NCBI GenBank assembly: GCA_949285605.1
Contig: CASDZI010000013.1
Coordinates: forward strand, 1-36,048
DNA from: an uncultured Christensenella sp.
GTDB taxonomy: Bacteria; Bacillota; Clostridia; Christensenellales; DTU072
DNA: 36,048 nt
Direction: 5' to 3'
A model generated the notes under the pieces. That model ran no database searches and was not told the origin of the DNA. It saw only the letters and a list, made by a program, of their open reading frames with translations. This document shows, piece after piece, positions 12,213 to 24,966 of the stretch. How positions within the stretch are numbered: the stretch's first letter is position 1; every line of letters starts with the position of its first letter. A program made the position numbers and the translations under genes.

Positions 12213-13445
12213 ATGGCAACTGTTCAACTTGTAAACGTAAATAAAGTATACGACGGCGGCGTTCACGCCGTACACGATTTTTCGATCGACATCGAGGACA
12301 AAGAGTTCATCGTTTTCGTCGGTCCGTCCGGATGCGGCAAGTCCACGACGCTGCGAATGATAGCAGGTCTCGAGGAGATATCTTACGGGGAGTTGTATAT
12401 CAACGGCAAACTGATGAACAGCGCTGCGCCAAAAGACAGAGGCATAGCGATGGTGTTCCAGTCTTATGCGCTATATCCGCAGATGACGGTTTACGACAAT
12501 ATGGCGTATGCACTGAAACTCAGGAAAGTTCCCAAACAGGAGATAGATTCGAGGGTCAGAGCGGCGGCTGACATACTTAAACTCACCCCGTATCTCAACA
12601 GGAAGCCGCGCGCGTTGTCGGGCGGTCAGAGACAGAGAGTCGCGCTTGGCAGAGCGATCGTGCGCCGTCCCAAGGTGTTCCTTATGGACGAGCCTCTTTC
12701 CAACCTCGACGCAAAACTCAGAGTAGCGATGAGAAGTGAGATCGTCAGAATCCACAAAGAAGTGGAAGCGACGACAATTTACGTCACGCACGACCAGATC
12801 GAGGCAATGACGATGGCGTCACGCATTGTCGTCATGAAAAACGGGTTTATCCAGCAGATCGGCGAGCCGAACGAGGTATACAGCCATCCGGCAAATATGT
12901 TCGTGGCGGGATTCATAGGCACTCCCGCAATGAATTTTCTGCACGGTAAATCGGAAAAAGGGTTTTTCTGTATTGACGGTACTGACGAAAAGATCAGACT
13001 GACCGAGGAACAGCAAAAACTTCTCGCCGCCTACGAAAATAAGAGGATAGTTTACGGTATCCGTCCGGAAAATCTTATATACGAAGAGGACGAGAGATTT
13101 GCAGATTTCAAGGATATGTCTTTTTCAATGAAATGCAATATAGTCGAAAGACTCGGCGATACCGTCAACGTGCACGGAACGGTAAAAGACAACGATGTGA
13201 TTATAAAAATGAACAGCAAATTCGGTGTTGACGGAAAAACCGAGATAAGAGTCGCCGCCGACAGCGCATATGCGCGCTTCTTCAACGAAAGCACTACAAA
13301 TGCGATCACACCCGGGCACAATGCCTATGAGGAAGCCCCGGTAGCTGTATCTCCCGACGAGGAAAAGGTTGTGATCGTCAAAACCGAACCCAAAGGATTT
13401 TTGTCAAAACTGACAGACGCCATAAAAAGCAGATTTAAAAAGTAA
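12213..13445 (+). CDS. ugpC: Sugar ABC transporter ATPase, MsmX/UgpC/MalK type
   Basis: The 410-residue protein is the cytosolic ATP-hydrolysing subunit of a CUT1 sugar importer. Walker A GPSGCGKST lies at 37-45, the signature LSGGQRQRV starts at 135, and Walker B VFLMDEP spans 155-161, followed by the D-loop SNLDAKLR and the switch His in VTHDQIEAM. The C-terminal part from about residue 240 is the OB/TOBE regulatory region. The last 45 residues are a charged extension (VVIVKTEPKGFL...FKK) beyond the common length of about 365-370. In Bacillota such ATPases are often encoded elsewhere and shared between importers; here one is carried within the operon. It is the last gene before the terminator and should energise the two permeases encoded at 2521-4432. 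Confidence 0.93.
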   Translation: MATVQLVNVNKVYDGGVHAVHDFSIDIEDKEFIVFVGPSGCGKSTTLRMIAGLEEISYGELYINGKLMNSAAPKDRGIAMVFQSYALYPQMTVYDNMAYALKLRKVPKQEIDSRVRAAADILKLTPYLNRKPRALSGGQRQRVALGRAIVRRPKVFLMDEPLSNLDAKLRVAMRSEIVRIHKEVEATTIYVTHDQIEAMTMASRIVVMKNGFIQQIGEPNEVYSHPANMFVAGFIGTPAMNFLHGKSEKGFFCIDGTDEKIRLTEEQQKLLAAYENKRIVYGIRPENLIYEEDERFADFKDMSFSMKCNIVERLGDTVNVHGTVKDNDVIIKMNSKFGVDGKTEIRVAADSAYARFFNESTTNAITPGHNAYEEAPVAVSPDEEKVVIVKTEPKGFLSKLTDAIKSRFKK

Positions 13446-13462
13446 CATACCAACCCAAAATA

Positions 13463-13498
13463 AAAAAGCCCGTGGGGACGCATTTCCGCGGGCTTTTT
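13463..13498 (+). terminator. Rho-independent terminator of the fructan operon
   Basis: A 13-bp stem (13463-13475 with 13486-13498) contains one G-T wobble and closes a 10-base loop. The right arm ends in TTTTT. It begins 17 bp after the ATPase stop codon. The A-run in the left arm means that it could also work on the minus strand, but no minus-strand gene reaches it. Confidence 0.88.
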
Positions 13499-13500
13499 GC

Positions 13501-13726
13501 ACTTAAATGCAATGCGTCATTCACATGACGATTATAAAAATCTGACGGAGCCGGCTGGCTTGCCACGGGAGTTTCGCCATGCGACGAAAACCGCGGCATC
13601 GCGAGTTGTTCCGACTAACGGTATCGGTACCGCCGCGCCGAACCCGTTATAAATAACGGGGTCGACGACCACTTATCCCACAAAAAAAAGAAACCAAAAC
13701 CGACAGTTTCGATTTTGGTTTCTTTT
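13501..13726. other. Hairpin-rich intergenic stretch of unknown nature
   Basis: No credible coding frame is seen. Several short perfect inverted repeats follow one another: CGTCAT/ATGACG at 13515-13530, CGGTA/TACCG at about 13619-13632, and CCCGTTA/TAACGGG at 13643-13660. A long one at 13686-13726 has a 14-bp stem (AAAAGAAACCAAAA and its complement) around a 13-base loop. The last has an A-run before it and a T-run within its right arm, so it may terminate transcription in either direction. The stretch is more GC-rich than the AT-rich segment that follows. It could be a dispersed repeat, part of a structured RNA or the border of a decayed insertion; a second copy is not present in this window. 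Confidence 0.4.
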
Positions 13727-14267
13727 GGTGGAGCGTATTTACACAAAGTCGAATAGTTTAGATTTAAAGTACATAAATTCAAAATGGCAATTAGGAAATA
13801 AGAGATTAATAACAAATACAATGCCAAATAACCAGTCTAATATCATAGTTGTACTTGAAAGCCCACATATTGACGAATTTGATTCTAAAGGTAAAGGGTT
13901 GTTGCCATTGCAAAACGATAAGTTTTTTATAAATAAATTCTATCAGGCATTTTCAACGAGCAAAAATTTGAGTACAGCAAACACATTAAATACAACTCAA
14001 TCCTACTCAGTTTATTTAATAAATGCGATTCAATATCAATGTAGTTTAGGCTTGCCTACCGAATACTACCGAGATTAAATATTTTTATATTATTGGGAAA
14101 CTAAGTATTTAGATTTTGAAAGACGCTTAATTAATTTATTGAACAAAAATACTATAGCAATAATTAATTTGTACACAAAAGGAAAACATTCGAAATGCAC
14201 AAAAATTTATAATTATCATAAAAACAGTATAGATGGTATGGGAATTAAGTGTGAAAAAAATTTATGA
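13725..14267 (+). pseudogene. Unrecognised gene interrupted by an in-frame stop codon
   Basis: An open frame runs to TAA at 14076-14078 and then continues in the same frame to TGA at 14265-14267, with amino-acid composition unchanged across the stop. The first part includes NIIVVLESPHIDEFDSKGKG and YSVYLINAIQYQCSLGLPTE. The part after the stop reads IFLYYWETKYLDFERRLINLL and later YTKGKHSKCTKIYNYHK. A single base change (for example AAA to TAA) would explain the interruption. The apparent TTG start at 13725 lies inside the preceding hairpin and has no ribosome binding site, so the true 5' end is probably lost as well. I do not recognise the family. Base composition is strongly AT-rich compared with the flanking genes, which fits acquired and now decaying DNA. 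Confidence 0.6.
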
Positions 14268-14283
14268 AAAAGCTTGACGTTAA

Positions 14284-14532
14284 CTTTCAATATGGAAGTC
14301 AATCTACAGATTTGCAAAATTAGGTGGATATTATGAGATGGGGCTTGGGTTTGAGCAATATTATACAGAAGCGGCAAAATGGTATCGTTTGGCTGCCGAG
14401 CAAGGGAATTTTGCCGCCAAGCGAAATTTGGGATTATGTTACTATAACGGGCAAGGCGTGGAACAGAATTATGATGAGGCTCAATATTGGTTAAAAAAAT
14501 ATGAAGAACAAAAAAAAGAATTGAGATCATGA
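14284..14532 (+). pseudogene. Fragment of a Sel1-repeat (TPR-like) protein
   Basis: The frame is open from just after a TAA at 14281 and holds about 82 codons. It encodes most of two Sel1-like repeats: AKLGGYYEMGLGFEQYYTEA, then AKWYRLAAEQGNFAAKRNLG, then CYYNGQGVEQNYDEAQYWLK. Sel1 proteins normally have several such 36-residue repeats after an N-terminal part; here the repeats begin abruptly and only one internal ATG (14338) is available, without a ribosome binding site. I therefore call it a truncated remnant. It lies 16 bp after the other broken gene within the same AT-rich segment. Sel1 proteins often act in protein-protein interaction; no function can be assigned to this fragment. Confidence 0.6.
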
Positions 14533-14719
14533 AAAAATTTAATAGTTAAAGGAATGATAAATAAAGAAGTATTTTTTATTAGGAATATTATTATAAGGCT
14601 TGGTTTAAGATTGATTTAAGATGTTGGAAGTCGGACAAATGTAAAAGTTGATTTGTTTTGCGTGACGGAAAAGCGGTTGAAACGTGAGTTTCGGCAGGAA
14701 ATGCGGCGGGAAAAAGAGG
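14533..14719. other. Intergenic stretch without recognisable content
   Basis: No open frame of note, RNA gene or strong hairpin is seen between the Sel1 remnant and the citrate synthase promoter. Composition shifts from AT-rich back toward that of the flanking genes near 14640. Confidence 0.5.
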
Positions 14720-14748
14720 TTGCATAATTTGGACGTTTGTGCTATAAT
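14720..14748 (+). promoter_or_regulatory. Sigma-A promoter of the citrate synthase gene
   Basis: TTGCAT at 14720-14725 and TATAAT at 14743-14748 are separated by 17 bp, and TGC directly before the -10 box makes an extended -10. The -10 box lies within an 8-bp inverted repeat (CTATAATA at 14742-14749, TATTATAG at 14755-14762), which may be an operator. Confidence 0.75.
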
Positions 14749-14780
14749 ATTAGCTATTATAGTTTTATAGGAGGTGGGTG

Positions 14781-16971: not shown

Positions 16972-17007
16972 CTTTGGCAAAACGACCGACCGTAATTGTT
17001 TATTATA
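16972..17007 (+). promoter_or_regulatory. Putative ECF-sigma promoter, copy A
   Basis: CTTTGGCAAAAC at 16972-16983 and GTTTATTATA at 16998-17007 match a second site at 18705-18738 in both sequence and spacing (15 against 14 bases between CAAAA and GTTTA). The AAC within the -35-like part is common in ECF promoters. It lies 28 bp before the sigma gene, so autoregulation is likely. The motif was found by comparing the two upstream regions by eye. Confidence 0.45.
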
Positions 17008-17035
17008 CGGAAAGGGTCGTCGGAGCGAACACTTA

Positions 17036-17566
17036 ATGAAACACGAACATCTGGAGAGAATAGCCGAACGACTGAAAACCGGCGAAGAAAAAGCCTTTGA
17101 CGAGCTTTACGACGCCACTTATAAAGCGGTTTTCGTCAAGGCGTATTCGGTACTGAAAGACAAAATGAAAGCGGAAGACGTTCTGCAGGAAACGTACCTG
17201 ACAATTTACGGAAAAATAGGCACATATCTTTCGGGGACGAATTTTCTGGCGTGGATACTGACCATAGCGGGACGCCTTGCGATAAACGAATATCACCGCA
17301 CCGCAAGAGAAACGCCTTCGGAAGAGGAATATATTAACGTCAAGATGGGCGGAAAGGGTTTCGACGGCACGGAAAACTGGTTGGTGGACGTTGCGGGAAA
17401 AATCCTGGAGCAGGACGAGTTCGAAATAGTTATGGCGGCGGTCATGGGGGGATACCGAAGGCGGGAGATTGCCGAAGTTTTGGAGATGCCCGTATCGACG
17501 GTGAGCTGGAAGTATAAAAAAGGGTTGGAAAAACTGAAAAAATATCTAGAGGAGAAAGCGGAATGA
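17036..17566 (+). CDS. ECF-family RNA polymerase sigma factor
   Basis: The 176-residue protein has the two-domain ECF layout without regions 1 and 3. Region 2 spans about 18-66, including FDELYDATYKAVFVKAYSVL and the core-binding KAEDVLQETYLTIY. Region 4 spans about 122-172, with a helix-turn-helix RREIAEVLEMPVSTVSWKYK. A linker of about 45 residues separates them. ECF factors redirect RNA polymerase to a small regulon when an envelope or other signal releases them from a membrane-bound anti-sigma factor. The stop codon overlaps the start of the next gene as ATGA, the usual coupling with the anti-sigma partner. A weak GGAG lies 11 bases before the start. The nearby lipoprotein gene is the best candidate target. 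Confidence 0.92.
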   Translation: MKHEHLERIAERLKTGEEKAFDELYDATYKAVFVKAYSVLKDKMKAEDVLQETYLTIYGKIGTYLSGTNFLAWILTIAGRLAINEYHRTARETPSEEEYINVKMGGKGFDGTENWLVDVAGKILEQDEFEIVMAAVMGGYRRREIAEVLEMPVSTVSWKYKKGLEKLKKYLEEKAE

Positions 17567-18687
17567 AAATCGGAAAAATCGAAAAAACATTGAAACGCCA
17601 GTCGCAGACGCTTTTGCCTTCGGAAGAGAATAAGGAGAAAATAAAGAGCAAACTCGTTTTTTCCGAAAAAAGCGGTAAAGCTTCACAAACTTCCTCCCGT
17701 AAAGGTTGGTTTTACGTTTTGGGAGGAGCATTGGCGACGGTTCTGATAATAGCCATAGTAGTAGCGTTGGTGCCGACGGGCGGAACGGGATCGGCTCCCG
17801 GAAAGCCCGGAGGAGATACGGACGTGCCCGTTCCGCCCGTGACGGAGCTGTCGGCAAGTCAGAAAGTTTATGCTTTTTCGGCGGCGAGCGGCGGACTCAC
17901 CCTGATGAATTACCGGACCGTCGCTACCTCCGACGTCACGGTATCGGGCGCGGCTTTTTCCGCATTGGCTTACGCCGAAACGCTATCGGCTCGTTCCGAC
18001 GATATAACTTTGATCAACAAATATATGCTGCTTGCGGAGACCGTGCTGAGCGAAGGGCTGGTGACGGTAGAAAAAGAAAGCGATCTGCCCGACTACGAAA
18101 AAATGCTCGTGACCCGTATCGGAGGGGTGGACGGTTCCTTGACCGAATCGATATTGTACTATAATGAGAAAATTATCGAAAATAACGGAGAGGAAACCGA
18201 AACGTCGATAACCGGTATCCTTAAAATGGGTAATACGATTTTTGAGGTAAGAGGCGAAAGGAGTTTGGAACAGGGAGAGGAGGAGTTGGAATTTACCGCT
18301 ACGGCAAAGGACGGCACTTATGTGGTGGTGGAACACGAGGCGGAATATCGGGAGACGGAATATTCCTATACCGTTTATAAAAACGGCAAGAAGGTGGACA
18401 AGTTCTCTTTGGAAAGCGAAACCGGAAACGGCGTGAACGAAGTGGAAATGAAGATCAAAGACGGTTCGGAGGAACTTCTGATCTTTTACCAAAGGAAAGT
18501 AGGCGAAAGATATTTTACCGTTCTGACCGAAAACAACGGGCAGAGGAAAGTTTACCGAGTGGAAGTTACCGAAGAAAACGGCAACACGTCCTATAGATAT
18601 TTTGCCGAGAGCGGAGAGACGGTGGATATGGACAGGGAGGACTTTTTCGACGATGACGACGACGATGACGACGACGATGACGATTAA
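17563..18687 (+). CDS. Single-pass membrane protein, candidate anti-sigma factor
   Basis: The 374-residue protein has a short basic cytoplasmic part (residues 1-48, no zinc-finger ZAS motif), one membrane helix (about 49-71), a Gly/Pro-rich linker and an extracellular domain (about 92-360). The tail ends in twelve aspartates in a row, encoded by GAC/GAT codons in near-perfect nine-base repeats at 18649-18684. Its position, overlapping the ECF sigma gene as ATGA, and its topology suggest an anti-sigma factor, though the cytoplasmic part is short for one. The ectodomain is clearly related to the lipoprotein encoded next: shared elements include ILYYNE, VRGER, EYSYTV and RVEVTE/SIHVTE near the end. 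I do not recognise the ectodomain as a named family. Confidence 0.7.
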   Translation: MKIGKIEKTLKRQSQTLLPSEENKEKIKSKLVFSEKSGKASQTSSRKGWFYVLGGALATVLIIAIVVALVPTGGTGSAPGKPGGDTDVPVPPVTELSASQKVYAFSAASGGLTLMNYRTVATSDVTVSGAAFSALAYAETLSARSDDITLINKYMLLAETVLSEGLVTVEKESDLPDYEKMLVTRIGGVDGSLTESILYYNEKIIENNGEETETSITGILKMGNTIFEVRGERSLEQGEEELEFTATAKDGTYVVVEHEAEYRETEYSYTVYKNGKKVDKFSLESETGNGVNEVEMKIKDGSEELLIFYQRKVGERYFTVLTENNGQRKVYRVEVTEENGNTSYRYFAESGETVDMDREDFFDDDDDDDDDDDD

Positions 18688-18704
18688 AAAATTTTTTTTC
18701 GAAA

Positions 18705-18738
18705 CTTTGGCAAAAACCGTTTTTAATTTGTTTATATA
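18705..18738 (+). promoter_or_regulatory. Putative ECF-sigma promoter, copy B
   Basis: CTTTGGCAAAAAC at 18705-18717 and GTTTATATA at 18730-18738 repeat the motif found before the sigma gene at 16972-17007. It lies 30 bp before the lipoprotein start and directly after the anti-sigma stop. No sigma-A-like pair is evident here, which favours dependence on the ECF factor. Confidence 0.45.
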
Positions 18739-18768
18739 GTGAAAACACCTGACAAGGAGGCGTTAAAA

Positions 18769-19737
18769 ATGAAAAAGAGTTTATTGTTTATTTTAATAGC
18801 GGTAATATTGCTGACGGCGGCAATGCTGGTTGCGTGCGACGAGGAGACCGTTCCGCCTGCCGATCTCGGAAACGGCGGTACCGACGGGAACGGCGGAACC
18901 ACCGGGGGCAACGGGCAGGGGACCATAACCACGGTCAAATCGAATTACGCCTTTGCCACCGTGGGGAGCGGAGCTTTATTGAGCGGATTGAGTGCGGAAA
19001 ACGAAGACGCCGTCCCGTCCAATGCTCCCGCAAACGGACAATATGTGACGCAGGAGGAACTTAAAGCAGAGGATCTTGCTACGATTAACCGTTATCTCGG
19101 CATAGTGGAAAGTTTTCTTTCCGACAGCGGCGTGACTTTTACGGAAACCGAATCCGATAAAGAAGGATATGCTTTCAAACTGGTGGCTCAGTCTAAAGAC
19201 ATTACCGGGAAAGCTACGGAATTCATCCTTTACTATAACGAGACCCGCACCGTAGTAGACGAGGACGAGACCAAAACCGCGCTGGAAGGAATAATGAGTT
19301 TCAACGGACAGGAATACACCGTCAGAGGGGAAAGGGAAAGCGCTTTCGACGAAAACGAAATGGAATTCATAGCGTATATCGACAGAGCCAATTACGTCAA
19401 GATCGAACAGGAACAGGAAGACGGTGAAAACGAATATTCCTATACGGTGGTGGAAAACGGAATAACCACGGCGGCGTTCGAACTGGAGATAGAAACCGAA
19501 GCCGACGAAACCGAAGTGGAGATACGTTCCTATGAAAACAACGTAACTACGGTGATCGACTTCAAAGAGAAAATAGCTTCCAACGGGAAATCCCACATCG
19601 AAGCGACATTCGTGGAAAACAACGTAATGACCCGCTTCTCGATACACGTTACCGAAAATCCCGACGGAACGGAAAGTTACCTTTATAAATTTTCCACAGG
19701 CAAAGAAGTCAATATGAACAGGTGCTGGGACGATTAA
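18769..19737 (+). CDS. Lipoprotein paralogous to the candidate anti-sigma ectodomain
   Basis: The 322-residue product has a lipoprotein signal peptide ending in LVAC (C23), a Gly/Asn-rich linker and one large domain. ATG at 18769 is chosen over the in-frame GTG at 18739 because AAGGAGG at 18754-18760 lies eight bases before it and a normal signal peptide results. The domain aligns along its length with the ectodomain of the preceding membrane protein: INRYLGIVESFLS against INKYMLLAETVLS, FILYYNET against ILYYNEK, TVRGERE against EVRGERS, NEYSYTVVENG against EYSYTVYKNG. It has no cytoplasmic part and cannot itself hold a sigma factor. A shared promoter motif suggests that it is made when the sigma factor is active. 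It may bind the same ligand or interact with the membrane paralogue; function unknown. Confidence 0.75.
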   Translation: MKKSLLFILIAVILLTAAMLVACDEETVPPADLGNGGTDGNGGTTGGNGQGTITTVKSNYAFATVGSGALLSGLSAENEDAVPSNAPANGQYVTQEELKAEDLATINRYLGIVESFLSDSGVTFTETESDKEGYAFKLVAQSKDITGKATEFILYYNETRTVVDEDETKTALEGIMSFNGQEYTVRGERESAFDENEMEFIAYIDRANYVKIEQEQEDGENEYSYTVVENGITTAAFELEIETEADETEVEIRSYENNVTTVIDFKEKIASNGKSHIEATFVENNVMTRFSIHVTENPDGTESYLYKFSTGKEVNMNRCWDD

Positions 19738-21056: not shown

Positions 21057-22655
21057 TTATTCCGCCGCTTCGGCGACGCTTTCCGTCTCGGCGACGCTTT
21101 CCGTCTCGGCGACGCTTTCGGCTTCCCTTCTTTCGGCTATCAGGCGGACTATTTCGGCGTGACGGGCTTCGTTAAGGAAACACTTTTTGCGATAGAGCGT
21201 CCAGGCTACCAGCAATCCCACTGCGGGGATAACGCACATGCATATCAGTAAAGCCATTTTCTTGCCTTCGGGAACGCCTTCCAGGATCTGTTTTATTCCC
21301 TCGGTTTTCACGGCGTCGGTTATTTCTCCTCGGGAAGCGGCGTTTTCGAGATCGCTTATTCCGTTGGTGAAAGCCGTTACGCCCACCGCAAGGTAAACCA
21401 GCATTACGATGAACTGCATAAACGCCGACCCCATTTTAGCGGTAAAGGGACGGAGGGAGAAGATAAGTCCTTCGTCTCTTTTGCCGGTCTTCCATTCGTT
21501 GTATTCCACGGTGTTGGCTATAGATATGACCATTATCATATAGAAGCCCTGTCCGAAGCCGACCACGCCGTAGCAGAACGCCATAACGCCGAATTTAAGC
21601 AGCCACGGGTCATGCGGCAGGGCCAGTCCGGCTATCATCATGACGGTATATCCTACTATGGTGCAGAGGGAGGTTATCGTGATAAGTTTATCCCTGCCGA
21701 GTCGCTTCGCCATCCAAGGATAGAAAAGGGTAAAAGCTGTACTTGTTATGGCGTAAAAGACCCCAAACACCGTGATAAGGATACCGTTATATCCGAATTC
21801 GAAATATATGTAACTCATACTCAGACCGCCTCCGACGACGTTGGTGGCGACGTTGAAAATGAGCATTATGAGGGCGCACCACATAAGTTGATCGTTCTTG
21901 AAAAGCACCTTGAACATATCCTTGAGTTTCAGCGGCGGAGCTTTGGCAAGGTCGGCAGGGAGGGGTTTTTCCTTCACTCCGAATACCGTAAACAGCTGGA
22001 ATCCCACCATAAAGATGGCGGCGACGACGGCTATTATCGAATAGGCTTTGACCGAGCTTCCGCCGATGGTAAGGTTGCCTGCGGTAAACACGGGTATGGC
22101 GATACCGGCTATCCCTCCTCCCGCCGCCGCAAAGATCTGAGCGAAAGAGGTGAGCTTGTTACGGGTGTGTTCGTTGCGGGAAAGCGAGGGGAGCATACCC
22201 CAGTAGGAAATATCGTTCATCGTGAAGGTAATGCTGAATAAGAAGTACATCGCCGCAAGGAACGCAATGAACGACCAGCCTTGCAGGGAGGTGGAGAATG
22301 TGGCTATGACCACCCCGGCGGTAAGGACTGCGCCTATCAGCATCCAAGGCTTGAACTTTCCGAATCTCGTTCGGGTGTTTTCCACTATTCCGCCCATTAC
22401 GGGATCGTTGAAAGCGTCGAAGATCCTCGCTACGATAATTATTATGCTCACCGAAGCGAACTGGGCTTCGGTAAGGGTTTTCGTAAAGAGAATGTAAGTC
22501 AGGAGAAAACTGTTGAAAAGGTTGTATAGAAAATCCCGTCCCACCGTGCCGAGCGGATACATAATATAATTAATTTTCGCCATATCCTCTTCGTTTTTCG
22601 GACTTACGGGAGCGACATCGCCGTTTGAAGTTATGATTTTTTCGTTTTCGTTCAT
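21057..22655 (-). CDS. GPH-family (MelB-type) glycoside:cation symporter
   Basis: The 532-residue protein has the GPH family layout of twelve helices. Loop motifs include ARIFDAFNDPVMGGIVENTR with RFGKFKPW (about residues 76-103), the Asp-containing cation/sugar region of MelB-like carriers, and later EYNEWKTGKRDEGLIFS. The family imports glycosides, pentosides or hexuronides with Na+ or H+. The N-terminal 25 residues are hydrophilic. The C-terminus ends in a six-residue peptide repeat (ETESVA, three copies) after RLIAERREAESVA, encoded by an 18-bp tandem repeat. The start has AGAGG nine bases upstream. A weak minus-strand promoter (TTGAAA, 17 bp, TAAACT) may lie around 22684-22712. The MFS gene follows it, so both may serve one uptake or efflux task. 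Confidence 0.9.
   Translation of the reverse strand: MNENEKIITSNGDVAPVSPKNEEDMAKINYIMYPLGTVGRDFLYNLFNSFLLTYILFTKTLTEAQFASVSIIIIVARIFDAFNDPVMGGIVENTRTRFGKFKPWMLIGAVLTAGVVIATFSTSLQGWSFIAFLAAMYFLFSITFTMNDISYWGMLPSLSRNEHTRNKLTSFAQIFAAAGGGIAGIAIPVFTAGNLTIGGSSVKAYSIIAVVAAIFMVGFQLFTVFGVKEKPLPADLAKAPPLKLKDMFKVLFKNDQLMWCALIMLIFNVATNVVGGGLSMSYIYFEFGYNGILITVFGVFYAITSTAFTLFYPWMAKRLGRDKLITITSLCTIVGYTVMMIAGLALPHDPWLLKFGVMAFCYGVVGFGQGFYMIMVISIANTVEYNEWKTGKRDEGLIFSLRPFTAKMGSAFMQFIVMLVYLAVGVTAFTNGISDLENAASRGEITDAVKTEGIKQILEGVPEGKKMALLICMCVIPAVGLLVAWTLYRKKCFLNEARHAEIVRLIAERREAESVAETESVAETESVAEAAE
21071..21124. repeat. 18-bp tandem repeat, three copies, at the 3' end of the GPH gene
   Basis: Units at 21071-21088 and 21089-21106 are identical; the third at 21107-21124 differs at a few positions near its end. 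In frame it encodes the repeated ESVAET peptide at the transporter's C-terminus. Copy number may vary between strains by slippage. Confidence 0.85.
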
Positions 22656-23331: not shown

Positions 23332-24966
23332 ATGCGAGAAAACACTCTTAACGTAAAGGTTTCTAAGAAAACGGCGGCCATAGTCGTCGTTTCGGTCGTG
23401 CTCGTTCTGATAATTGCCCTTATCGGAGCGATAGCGGGTCATACCGTTTATCAAAATAATCAAAAAGCTTTCATAATAAATTACAACACCGATTTTATCG
23501 CAACCACTCCGCAGACCCTTACCTATTACTACAAGGACGGCGAGAAGAAAGTCGATTTTTCGCAAATAGTCAAAGTCAGCGAAGGGGCGAGTTTTTATTT
23601 GACCAAAATCATAGACGAGGACGGTACCGTCAGTAAACCCGAGGGGACGGTGGTGGACGTTTCGGCAAAATCGCAGCGTCTCGCCGTCGTGCACGTGGTC
23701 AGCGCCAGCGGCAAGAAAGCCACCGATTACCGCATTACCATAGCCCCTCAGAGTTCCAAGGGTAATATCGTCGACTTCAACGTACCCGACGACGCTCTCG
23801 ATCTCGACGATATTTTCTTCACCTACAGCGGCGAATACGATATGACCCTTCCCACTCCGGTAAAAAGCTATACCGGTCCGTCGGGGAATACCGTTAATTT
23901 CGAGTTCCAGGGCTGGTACACCACCGAAGATTTTCAGGAAGGTACGGAGATAGAAAAAATCGAAGCCGGAACTTCGGGAAACGTTACTCTTTACGCAAAG
24001 TTCGCTCCCACCGCCGTTCTCGATTCCAGAGACGGATACCAGTACGTCTATTACGGCAGTTATCCCCAGTCTCAGGTCACCGATTACGATCTTTTGAAAT
24101 CCATCAAAAACAGCAACGAGTATAAGTCTGCCGGAAACGAGGCGGCATTTACTTATAACAGCGTAAAGTATTTCAAATTTACGCCGTATAACGTTCCGAA
24201 CCTCAGCGAGAACGGATACAGTTCGGCGATGACGTACGTCTTCGAATACGAGCCGGTGGAATGGCGGGTCCTTAAACCGAAAGGGCAAAAAGCCTCCGAC
24301 GGCGAAACCGTCTATATGCTCTCGACGTCCGTTCTGCAATGTTCTTCCTATCAGAAGAACGGAGGATTCATACAAGACGCATATGAGAGCGTGGCGAGTA
24401 CCATAGGGACGGATATTACCAGTTTTGTTCGCTACTATTTCGATCCCGATACCATGTATGCCGACAGTACCGTCAAACGCTTGTTGGACGGAGTACACGA
24501 AGAGGGTGAAGAGGAAGAGGACGGACTTTACGATTTTATAACCTCCGGTTTCGATACCTCGTTGGTACGCAGCAGAAGTTTCAATAAATACACCAGCGCC
24601 ATTTCGAGCAGGACCGAAAGTTATCCCTGCAACCTTTGGCTGTTGAATTACAGCGAAGCCATCAATGCGTCCTACGGTTTCAGTACCGATTTTTCCTACA
24701 ACGATCCTCTGCGGAAAGCTTTGGTAAGCGATTTTGCGGCGGCTAACGGAGTTTACCGAGCGACCAGCACCGCTCATGCCGGACAGGGTTCCTGGTGGCT
24801 CAGAGGGGCGGGTTCCACTTATTCTTACAGGGATAAAAGAGTAGCTTACGTCAAATATACCGGTTACGTTCACGCTTACGGCGCTCTAAACTTCGAAGTC
24901 CGAAGCGGAGTACGTCCGGCTATACAGGTGGTATTCGATTCTTCGATTCTGCTCCCTTCGGCATAG
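23332..24966 (+). CDS. Surface protein with Listeria-Bacteroides repeat and DUF6273 domain
   Basis: The 544-residue protein starts with a basic stretch and a signal-anchor helix (about residues 15-40), leaving the rest outside the cell. An InlB B-repeat/Listeria-Bacteroides-like module lies at about 148-228, with the typical FEFQGWYTTEDF and VTLYAKFAP elements. From about 238 to the end the sequence has the DUF6273 layout: YVYYGSYPQSQV, EYEPVEWRVL, YMLSTSVLQ, CNLWLLNYSEA, QGSWWLRGAGS and RSGVRPAIQV. DUF6273 is frequent in surface proteins of gut Bacillota, and its role is not established. The start follows GGAG. The gene ends 47 bp before ybaB and has a strong promoter of its own. A Glu-rich segment (EEGEEEEDG, near residue 389) interrupts the DUF6273 part. 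Confidence 0.78.
   Translation: MRENTLNVKVSKKTAAIVVVSVVLVLIIALIGAIAGHTVYQNNQKAFIINYNTDFIATTPQTLTYYYKDGEKKVDFSQIVKVSEGASFYLTKIIDEDGTVSKPEGTVVDVSAKSQRLAVVHVVSASGKKATDYRITIAPQSSKGNIVDFNVPDDALDLDDIFFTYSGEYDMTLPTPVKSYTGPSGNTVNFEFQGWYTTEDFQEGTEIEKIEAGTSGNVTLYAKFAPTAVLDSRDGYQYVYYGSYPQSQVTDYDLLKSIKNSNEYKSAGNEAAFTYNSVKYFKFTPYNVPNLSENGYSSAMTYVFEYEPVEWRVLKPKGQKASDGETVYMLSTSVLQCSSYQKNGGFIQDAYESVASTIGTDITSFVRYYFDPDTMYADSTVKRLLDGVHEEGEEEEDGLYDFITSGFDTSLVRSRSFNKYTSAISSRTESYPCNLWLLNYSEAINASYGFSTDFSYNDPLRKALVSDFAAANGVYRATSTAHAGQGSWWLRGAGSTYSYRDKRVAYVKYTGYVHAYGALNFEVRSGVRPAIQVVFDSSILLPSA

Follow-up and report, generated by a model that had tools for sequence, protein, structure and literature searches.

An ECF-type switch in an uncultured Christensenella sp. 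appears, as judged from its DNA, to turn on a lipoprotein copy of its own sensor and little else. The data support a putatively coupled sigma/anti-sigma pair and a sensor-domain lipoprotein, which would be transcribed from the same type of promoter, one that has few further exact targets, if any. We give an even chance to the reading that they form a dedicated sense-and-neutralise loop whose main output is the lipoprotein. A broader reading is more tentative: closed circuits of this kind would occur across the order, with an ECF sigma factor serving almost only one surface lipoprotein of a new-fold family, the domain of which repeatedly became the sensor of the anti-sigma factor and replaced an RsgI-type sensor. 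If this is true, an effector turned sensor several times over.

The cassette and its two related domains

The genome under study comprises 1.71 Mb in 69 contigs. One of these contigs, 36,048 nucleotides long, was analysed as a whole and is referred to as the window. The features of the cassette are compiled in Table 1.

Table 1. Genes and promoter-like elements of the cassette in the window
Feature	Position	Strand	Properties
Promoter-like element before sigma gene	16972-17003	+	CTTTGGCAAAA-N13-TTGTTTAT
ECF-type sigma factor gene	17036-17566	+	176 aa, regions 2 and 4
Anti-sigma-like single-pass membrane protein gene	17563-18687	+	374 aa; candidate for sigma binding, from sequence
Anti-sigma-like protein, layout			short N-terminal part; TM ~50-69; ectodomain ~97-358; Asp-rich tail
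Promoter-like element before lipoprotein gene	18705-18735	+	CTTTGGCAAAA-N12-TTGTTTAT
Lipoprotein gene	18769-19737	+	322 aa; lipobox LVAC, Cys 23

The sigma factor matches Sigma70_r2 (9.9e-11) and TIGR02937 (58.8 bits, cut-off 42.9). Region 4 is present, with a Sigma70_r4_2 match marginally below cut-off (3.4e-5). It has regions 2 and 4 only and lies within the ~170-190 aa typical of ECF factors. Its stop codon and the start codon of the anti-sigma-like gene overlap as ATGA, and the anti-sigma-like protein has one TM segment, in line with the overlapping single-pass membrane protein described in the first-pass annotation. No Pfam anti-sigma domain was found in this protein. Its N-terminal part, like that of the other anti-sigma factors of its kind, is homologous to the N-terminal part of RsgI-type anti-sigma factors at sister loci. 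A ZAS identity (HxxxCxxC) was excluded, as residues 1-49 contain neither His nor Cys. Membership in the RsgI family was excluded, too, as RsgI_M (PF23750) is unmatched. A run of twelve Asp (18640-18684) closes the protein. Asp-rich C-terminal tails are also found on related family f1 anti-sigma factors and are absent from the lipoproteins of those loci.

The lipoprotein starts at ATG 18769, which is preceded by AAGGAGG; GTG 18739 is not the start. It had been noticed at first pass that its mature domain resembles the ectodomain of the anti-sigma-like protein. This holds: BLASTP found 87 of 262 residues identical (33%, E=2e-30) in an alignment that spans almost the entire mature lipoprotein, and the same fold is predicted for both. 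The local BLOSUM62 score was 321, whereas 1000 shuffles averaged 50.6 (sd 9.1) and never exceeded 88 (z ~30). The INKY/INRY, ILYYNE, VRGER and EYSYTV blocks are all located inside this alignment.

Occurrence across the order

Of 396 genomes from the order that were searched with a 19-row profile, 83 contain the domain. In a class-wide sample of 291 genomes it was found solely in the window's own genome, so that the family seems restricted to this order, although more distant relatives could have escaped that sample. For comparison, 60 additional loci were retrieved. The 75 lipoproteins found yield 59 sigma-lipoprotein pairs, in which the lipoprotein gene is located downstream, upstream or divergently with respect to the sigma and anti-sigma genes. 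In the surroundings of the lipoproteins, no second gene family is found again and again on this scale.

Some lipoproteins have no sigma gene nearby, which speaks against a dedicated circuit. Stand-alone family lipoproteins lacking a homologous sigma gene within ~5 kb are present at L039, L041, L117, L126, L128, L129, L131 and L138, and the promoter motif described below is missing there. At three loci with RsgI-type anti-sigma factors (L118, L132 and L137), two family lipoproteins are encoded in tandem behind one sigma gene. Thus, the lipoprotein itself also duplicates. At L034 (G032, 1128-2462), the cassette seems to have decayed: the sigma gene is gone, and an anti-sigma fragment lies beside an intact-looking lipoprotein.

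A promoter-like element shared by sigma and lipoprotein genes

The promoter-like element is composed of CTTTGGCAAAA and TTGTTTAT, and position 16972, at which the first-pass annotation let the cassette begin, is the first base of this motif. In the 1.71-Mb genome, CTTTGGCAAAA-N12/13-TTGTTTAT has two exact matches, the two cassette sites, and the reversed control pattern has none. A related pattern searched in 14 genomes matched mostly at the cassette's own promoters, those before the sigma gene and the lipoprotein gene, which account for two of four matches in G187 and two of three in G378. Among exact pattern matches, a wider regulon is unsupported.

In 46 co-directional pairs, promoter similarity was 15.2/17 within the own locus vs 14.2/17 across loci, a value not reached in any of 10,000 permutations. 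Three motif types were scored: TTGGYAAA/TTGTT, CCAAYAA/TTGTT and GAGAATTT-like/TGTATA. A motif was present upstream of 28 of 57 sigma genes, 40 of 75 lipoprotein genes and none of 510 other neighbouring genes, and the types agreed in all 25 pairs with both promoters typed; these counts overstate independence because the types were defined after viewing the loci and many loci are related. Even so, the motif is absent from all 510 neighbouring genes and no pair is discordant, which argues strongly that one sigma factor serves both genes. Furthermore, the motif was found in 39 of 59 sigma-lipoprotein pairs vs none of 15 lipoproteins without a nearby sigma gene (Fisher p 2e-6; the contig-edge case L094 was set aside). 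The three-gene set, which the first-pass annotation suggested looking for in related genomes, recurs across the order, and its proposal that the lipoprotein may be a target of the sigma factor gains ground from the shared, genome-rare element.

Two kinds of anti-sigma factor and exchange of the sensor

The 57 sigma genes are followed by two kinds of anti-sigma gene. Type I (31 loci) encodes a lipoprotein-type ectodomain as in the window, type II (26 loci) a different one. RsgI_M (PF23750) was found in all six type II anti-sigma factors tested by Pfam, and its Asn-Pro can be read in all 26 type II sequences. The outside domain of RsgI self-cleaves (PMC12203970). The N-terminal parts of both types produced cross-hits below 1e-3 in 20/26 and 28/30 cases, with shuffled controls reaching 0.03 at best, and hhalign gave 97%. 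From this N-terminal homology it follows that the sensor was exchanged, with the sigma factor, the putative sigma-binding part, the promoter and the lipoprotein staying in place. In 26 relatives, the sigma factor, the lipoprotein and the promoter occur together with an ectodomain of the RsgI type. It is therefore more apt to regard the lipoprotein as constant and the ectodomain of the anti-sigma factor as variable, the latter being of the lipoprotein type in several lineages.

In a tree of 102 domains, a single clade of anti-sigma ectodomains was rejected (AU p 9e-68), and well-supported branches force at least five label changes. In the sigma tree, types I and II are interleaved, with at least three forced changes and five on the best tree. 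Four type I groups are identical in the domain tree and the sigma tree; joining the group of the window with the main group was rejected weakly (p 0.017). These sequence trees indicate that the lipoprotein-type domain was taken on by anti-sigma factors several times independently. Several exchanges are claimed and an exact number is not, since the trees carry no inferred root and the domains have diverged strongly from one another. Instead of being captured afresh, the domain could also have been passed between the two copies by gene conversion, as perhaps at L125, whose copies group as sisters. For an empty-site comparison within the genus, the sole close flank was on a 3.5-kb contig. Because sensors were swapped and sigma factor, promoter and lipoprotein retained, the loci provide natural replicates in which to study the path from defence effector to sensor.

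The same data bear on a plain tandem duplication, after which the functions of both copies would have diverged and uncoupled. Tandem homologues are common, and an identity of only 33% would be in keeping with such a history. However, linkage persists despite the varied gene order (downstream, upstream or divergent), promoter types co-vary and the exchange recurs in the trees. Hence, we disfavour this explanation and consider it very improbable.

Predicted fold, charge and domain family

For both proteins, AlphaFold2 predicted a long helix, a second helix and then ~15 antiparallel strands. pLDDT was 81.5 for the lipoprotein and 78.8 for the anti-sigma-like protein, with strand residues mostly above 90. 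The two models agree in the order of their elements. In many strands, hydrophobic residues alternate with charged, mainly acidic ones. This alternation would suit a barrel, or a sheet that is rolled up, whose outer face is acidic. The net charge has a median of about -40 per 274-aa domain. This is much more acidic than the other ORFs of the same loci, whose median is near zero per residue; 20 other lipoprotein-like ORFs of these loci have about half the acidity of the domain. Such a strong negative charge suggests a cationic ligand, with acidity serving as a hint only.

No Pfam or NCBIfam domain was found in the anti-sigma-like protein or in the lipoprotein, nor does any Pfam family recur in the set of 86 relatives. 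Foldseek returned no solved relative at E<=0.001, and a PDB sequence search yielded no relative of the domain. An RsiV/lysozyme-type domain (DUF3298/DUF4163) was rejected: none of the 86 members matched in Pfam at E 0.01, and a PDB relative was lacking. With VIA, the best match of the lipoprotein model was the ORP8 ORD (Z 8.8, rmsd 4.8, 191 aligned) and that of the anti-sigma model a TOC barrel (Z 9.4, rmsd 7.1, 175 aligned). These middling Z values may reflect merely a common barrel arrangement of the predicted structures. The circuit proposed below offers an initial clue to the function of a protein family without a Pfam name.

Proposed circuit and alternative explanations

In the proposed loop, a ligand from the envelope or the host, possibly cationic given the strong acidity of the domain, would bind the ectodomain of the anti-sigma factor. 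The ligand-bound anti-sigma factor would then be cut by regulated proteolysis; M50 genes, which are site-2-protease-like, exist in the 1.71-Mb genome. The freed sigma factor would transcribe its own operon and the lipoprotein gene. Finally, the anchored lipoprotein would bind the same ligand and in this way both protect the cell and turn off the signal. In sister lineages, an RsgI-type sensor would drive the same lipoprotein. A common ligand is not implied at these loci, since sensor and lipoprotein are non-homologous there.

The chief rival, which we consider rather unlikely, is that the lipoprotein binds the ectodomain of the anti-sigma factor directly and shields it from proteolysis, as RseB/MucB do for RseA/MucA. 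Activity of the sigma factor would then produce its own brake. Binding could occur as like-with-like pairing or, at sister loci, as docking on the RsgI domain. Pairing is frequent among homologous domains, and the lipoprotein is apparently co-regulated with the sigma factor and co-inherited with the anti-sigma factor. MucB is reported to bind the periplasmic part of MucA, with lipid as antagonist (PMC7400510), and the lipoprotein CseA reduces sigE promoter activity in Streptomyces (PMC6767563). The domain is predicted to be barrel-like and weakly similar to lipid-binding ORD domains. Against a direct partner, the ectodomain belongs to another family at 26 loci, so that a single binding mode cannot serve all loci.

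Alternatively, the lipoprotein might be an envelope component with a task of its own, whose amount, state or substrate is monitored by the sensor and whose supply is adjusted by the sigma factor, involving neither ligand competition nor a direct brake. Its constancy in the cassette while sensors vary, as well as its occurrence without a nearby sigma gene, are in agreement with such a role, but by itself this role leaves the repeated conversion of the lipoprotein-type domain to a sensor unexplained. We regard it as improbable.

Relation to known systems

For the sense-and-neutralise loop, a precedent exists in Clostridioides difficile, contrary to the first-pass view that no such arrangement was known. 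There, LbpA, which is encoded in the csfV operon, is related to RsiV but lacks the sigma-binding domain. At the membrane it binds lysozyme, and it provides a low level of resistance (PMC9044953). SigV-RsiV-LbpA and the cassette have in common an ECF sigma factor, an anti-sigma sensor in the membrane and a second, membrane-bound protein that is related to this sensor, lacks its sigma-binding part and is, here putatively, under the same sigma factor. Homology, lipobox and shared promoter are found in the window, and control by the same sigma factor is suggested by its sequence. In contrast to SigV-RsiV-LbpA, the domain is unrelated to RsiV, the cassette lacks a peptidoglycan deacetylase, and the lipoprotein was retained while the sensor ectodomain was exchanged. 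New relative to that system are the domain family and the unusual evolutionary pattern. A literature search on decoy paralogues of anti-sigma factors found nothing, and to our knowledge anti-sigma sensors with a free copy at the surface are known from one pathogen system. The cassettes would make such a copy a design principle that evolves, built here from an unrelated domain and spread through a large set of Clostridia that are uncultured and of the gut type.

SigI-RsgI of Clostridia and Bacilli resembles the sister loci, where 26 anti-sigma factors are of the RsgI type, with the autocleavage-type domain RsgI_M in six of six tested and the conserved Asn-Pro. It differs from the window, whose anti-sigma factor lacks RsgI_M and whose sigma factor is of the ECF type. 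We know of no lipoprotein partner in described SigI-RsgI systems. RseA-RseB and MucA-MucB would share with the cassette an extracytoplasmic partner of the anti-sigma factor and a beta-rich, barrel-like domain, which is predicted here. As far as we know, RseB is not homologous to the RseA ectodomain. A match to the LolA/RseB-type fold was not established, the fold search giving only barrel-like matches with middling Z. CseA from the Streptomyces sigE-cseABC operon is likewise a lipoprotein encoded with an ECF factor and dampens its system (PMC6767563); unlike the lipoprotein of the window, it is partnered with a two-component system instead of an anti-sigma factor and is not a sensor copy.

Genome setting and neighbouring genes

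The close relatives that bear names are poultry and other gut-type MAGs (Candidatus Stercoripulliclostridium; uncultured Clostridia or Eubacteriales). Close to the cassette, an MFS_2 sugar-type transporter is encoded (21057-22655), a homologue of which lies within the fetched stretch at nine other loci; this neighbourhood may be due to chance, as several of the nine loci come from one genus. A 544-aa membrane-anchored protein (23332-24966) has a weak match, below cut-off, to the Listeria-Bacteroides repeat. The region 13445-14778, flanked by a sugar ABC-type ATPase gene and a citrate synthase gene, contains few genes. Inside it, a short ORF with a TTG start and without a Pfam match is located at 13725-14078.
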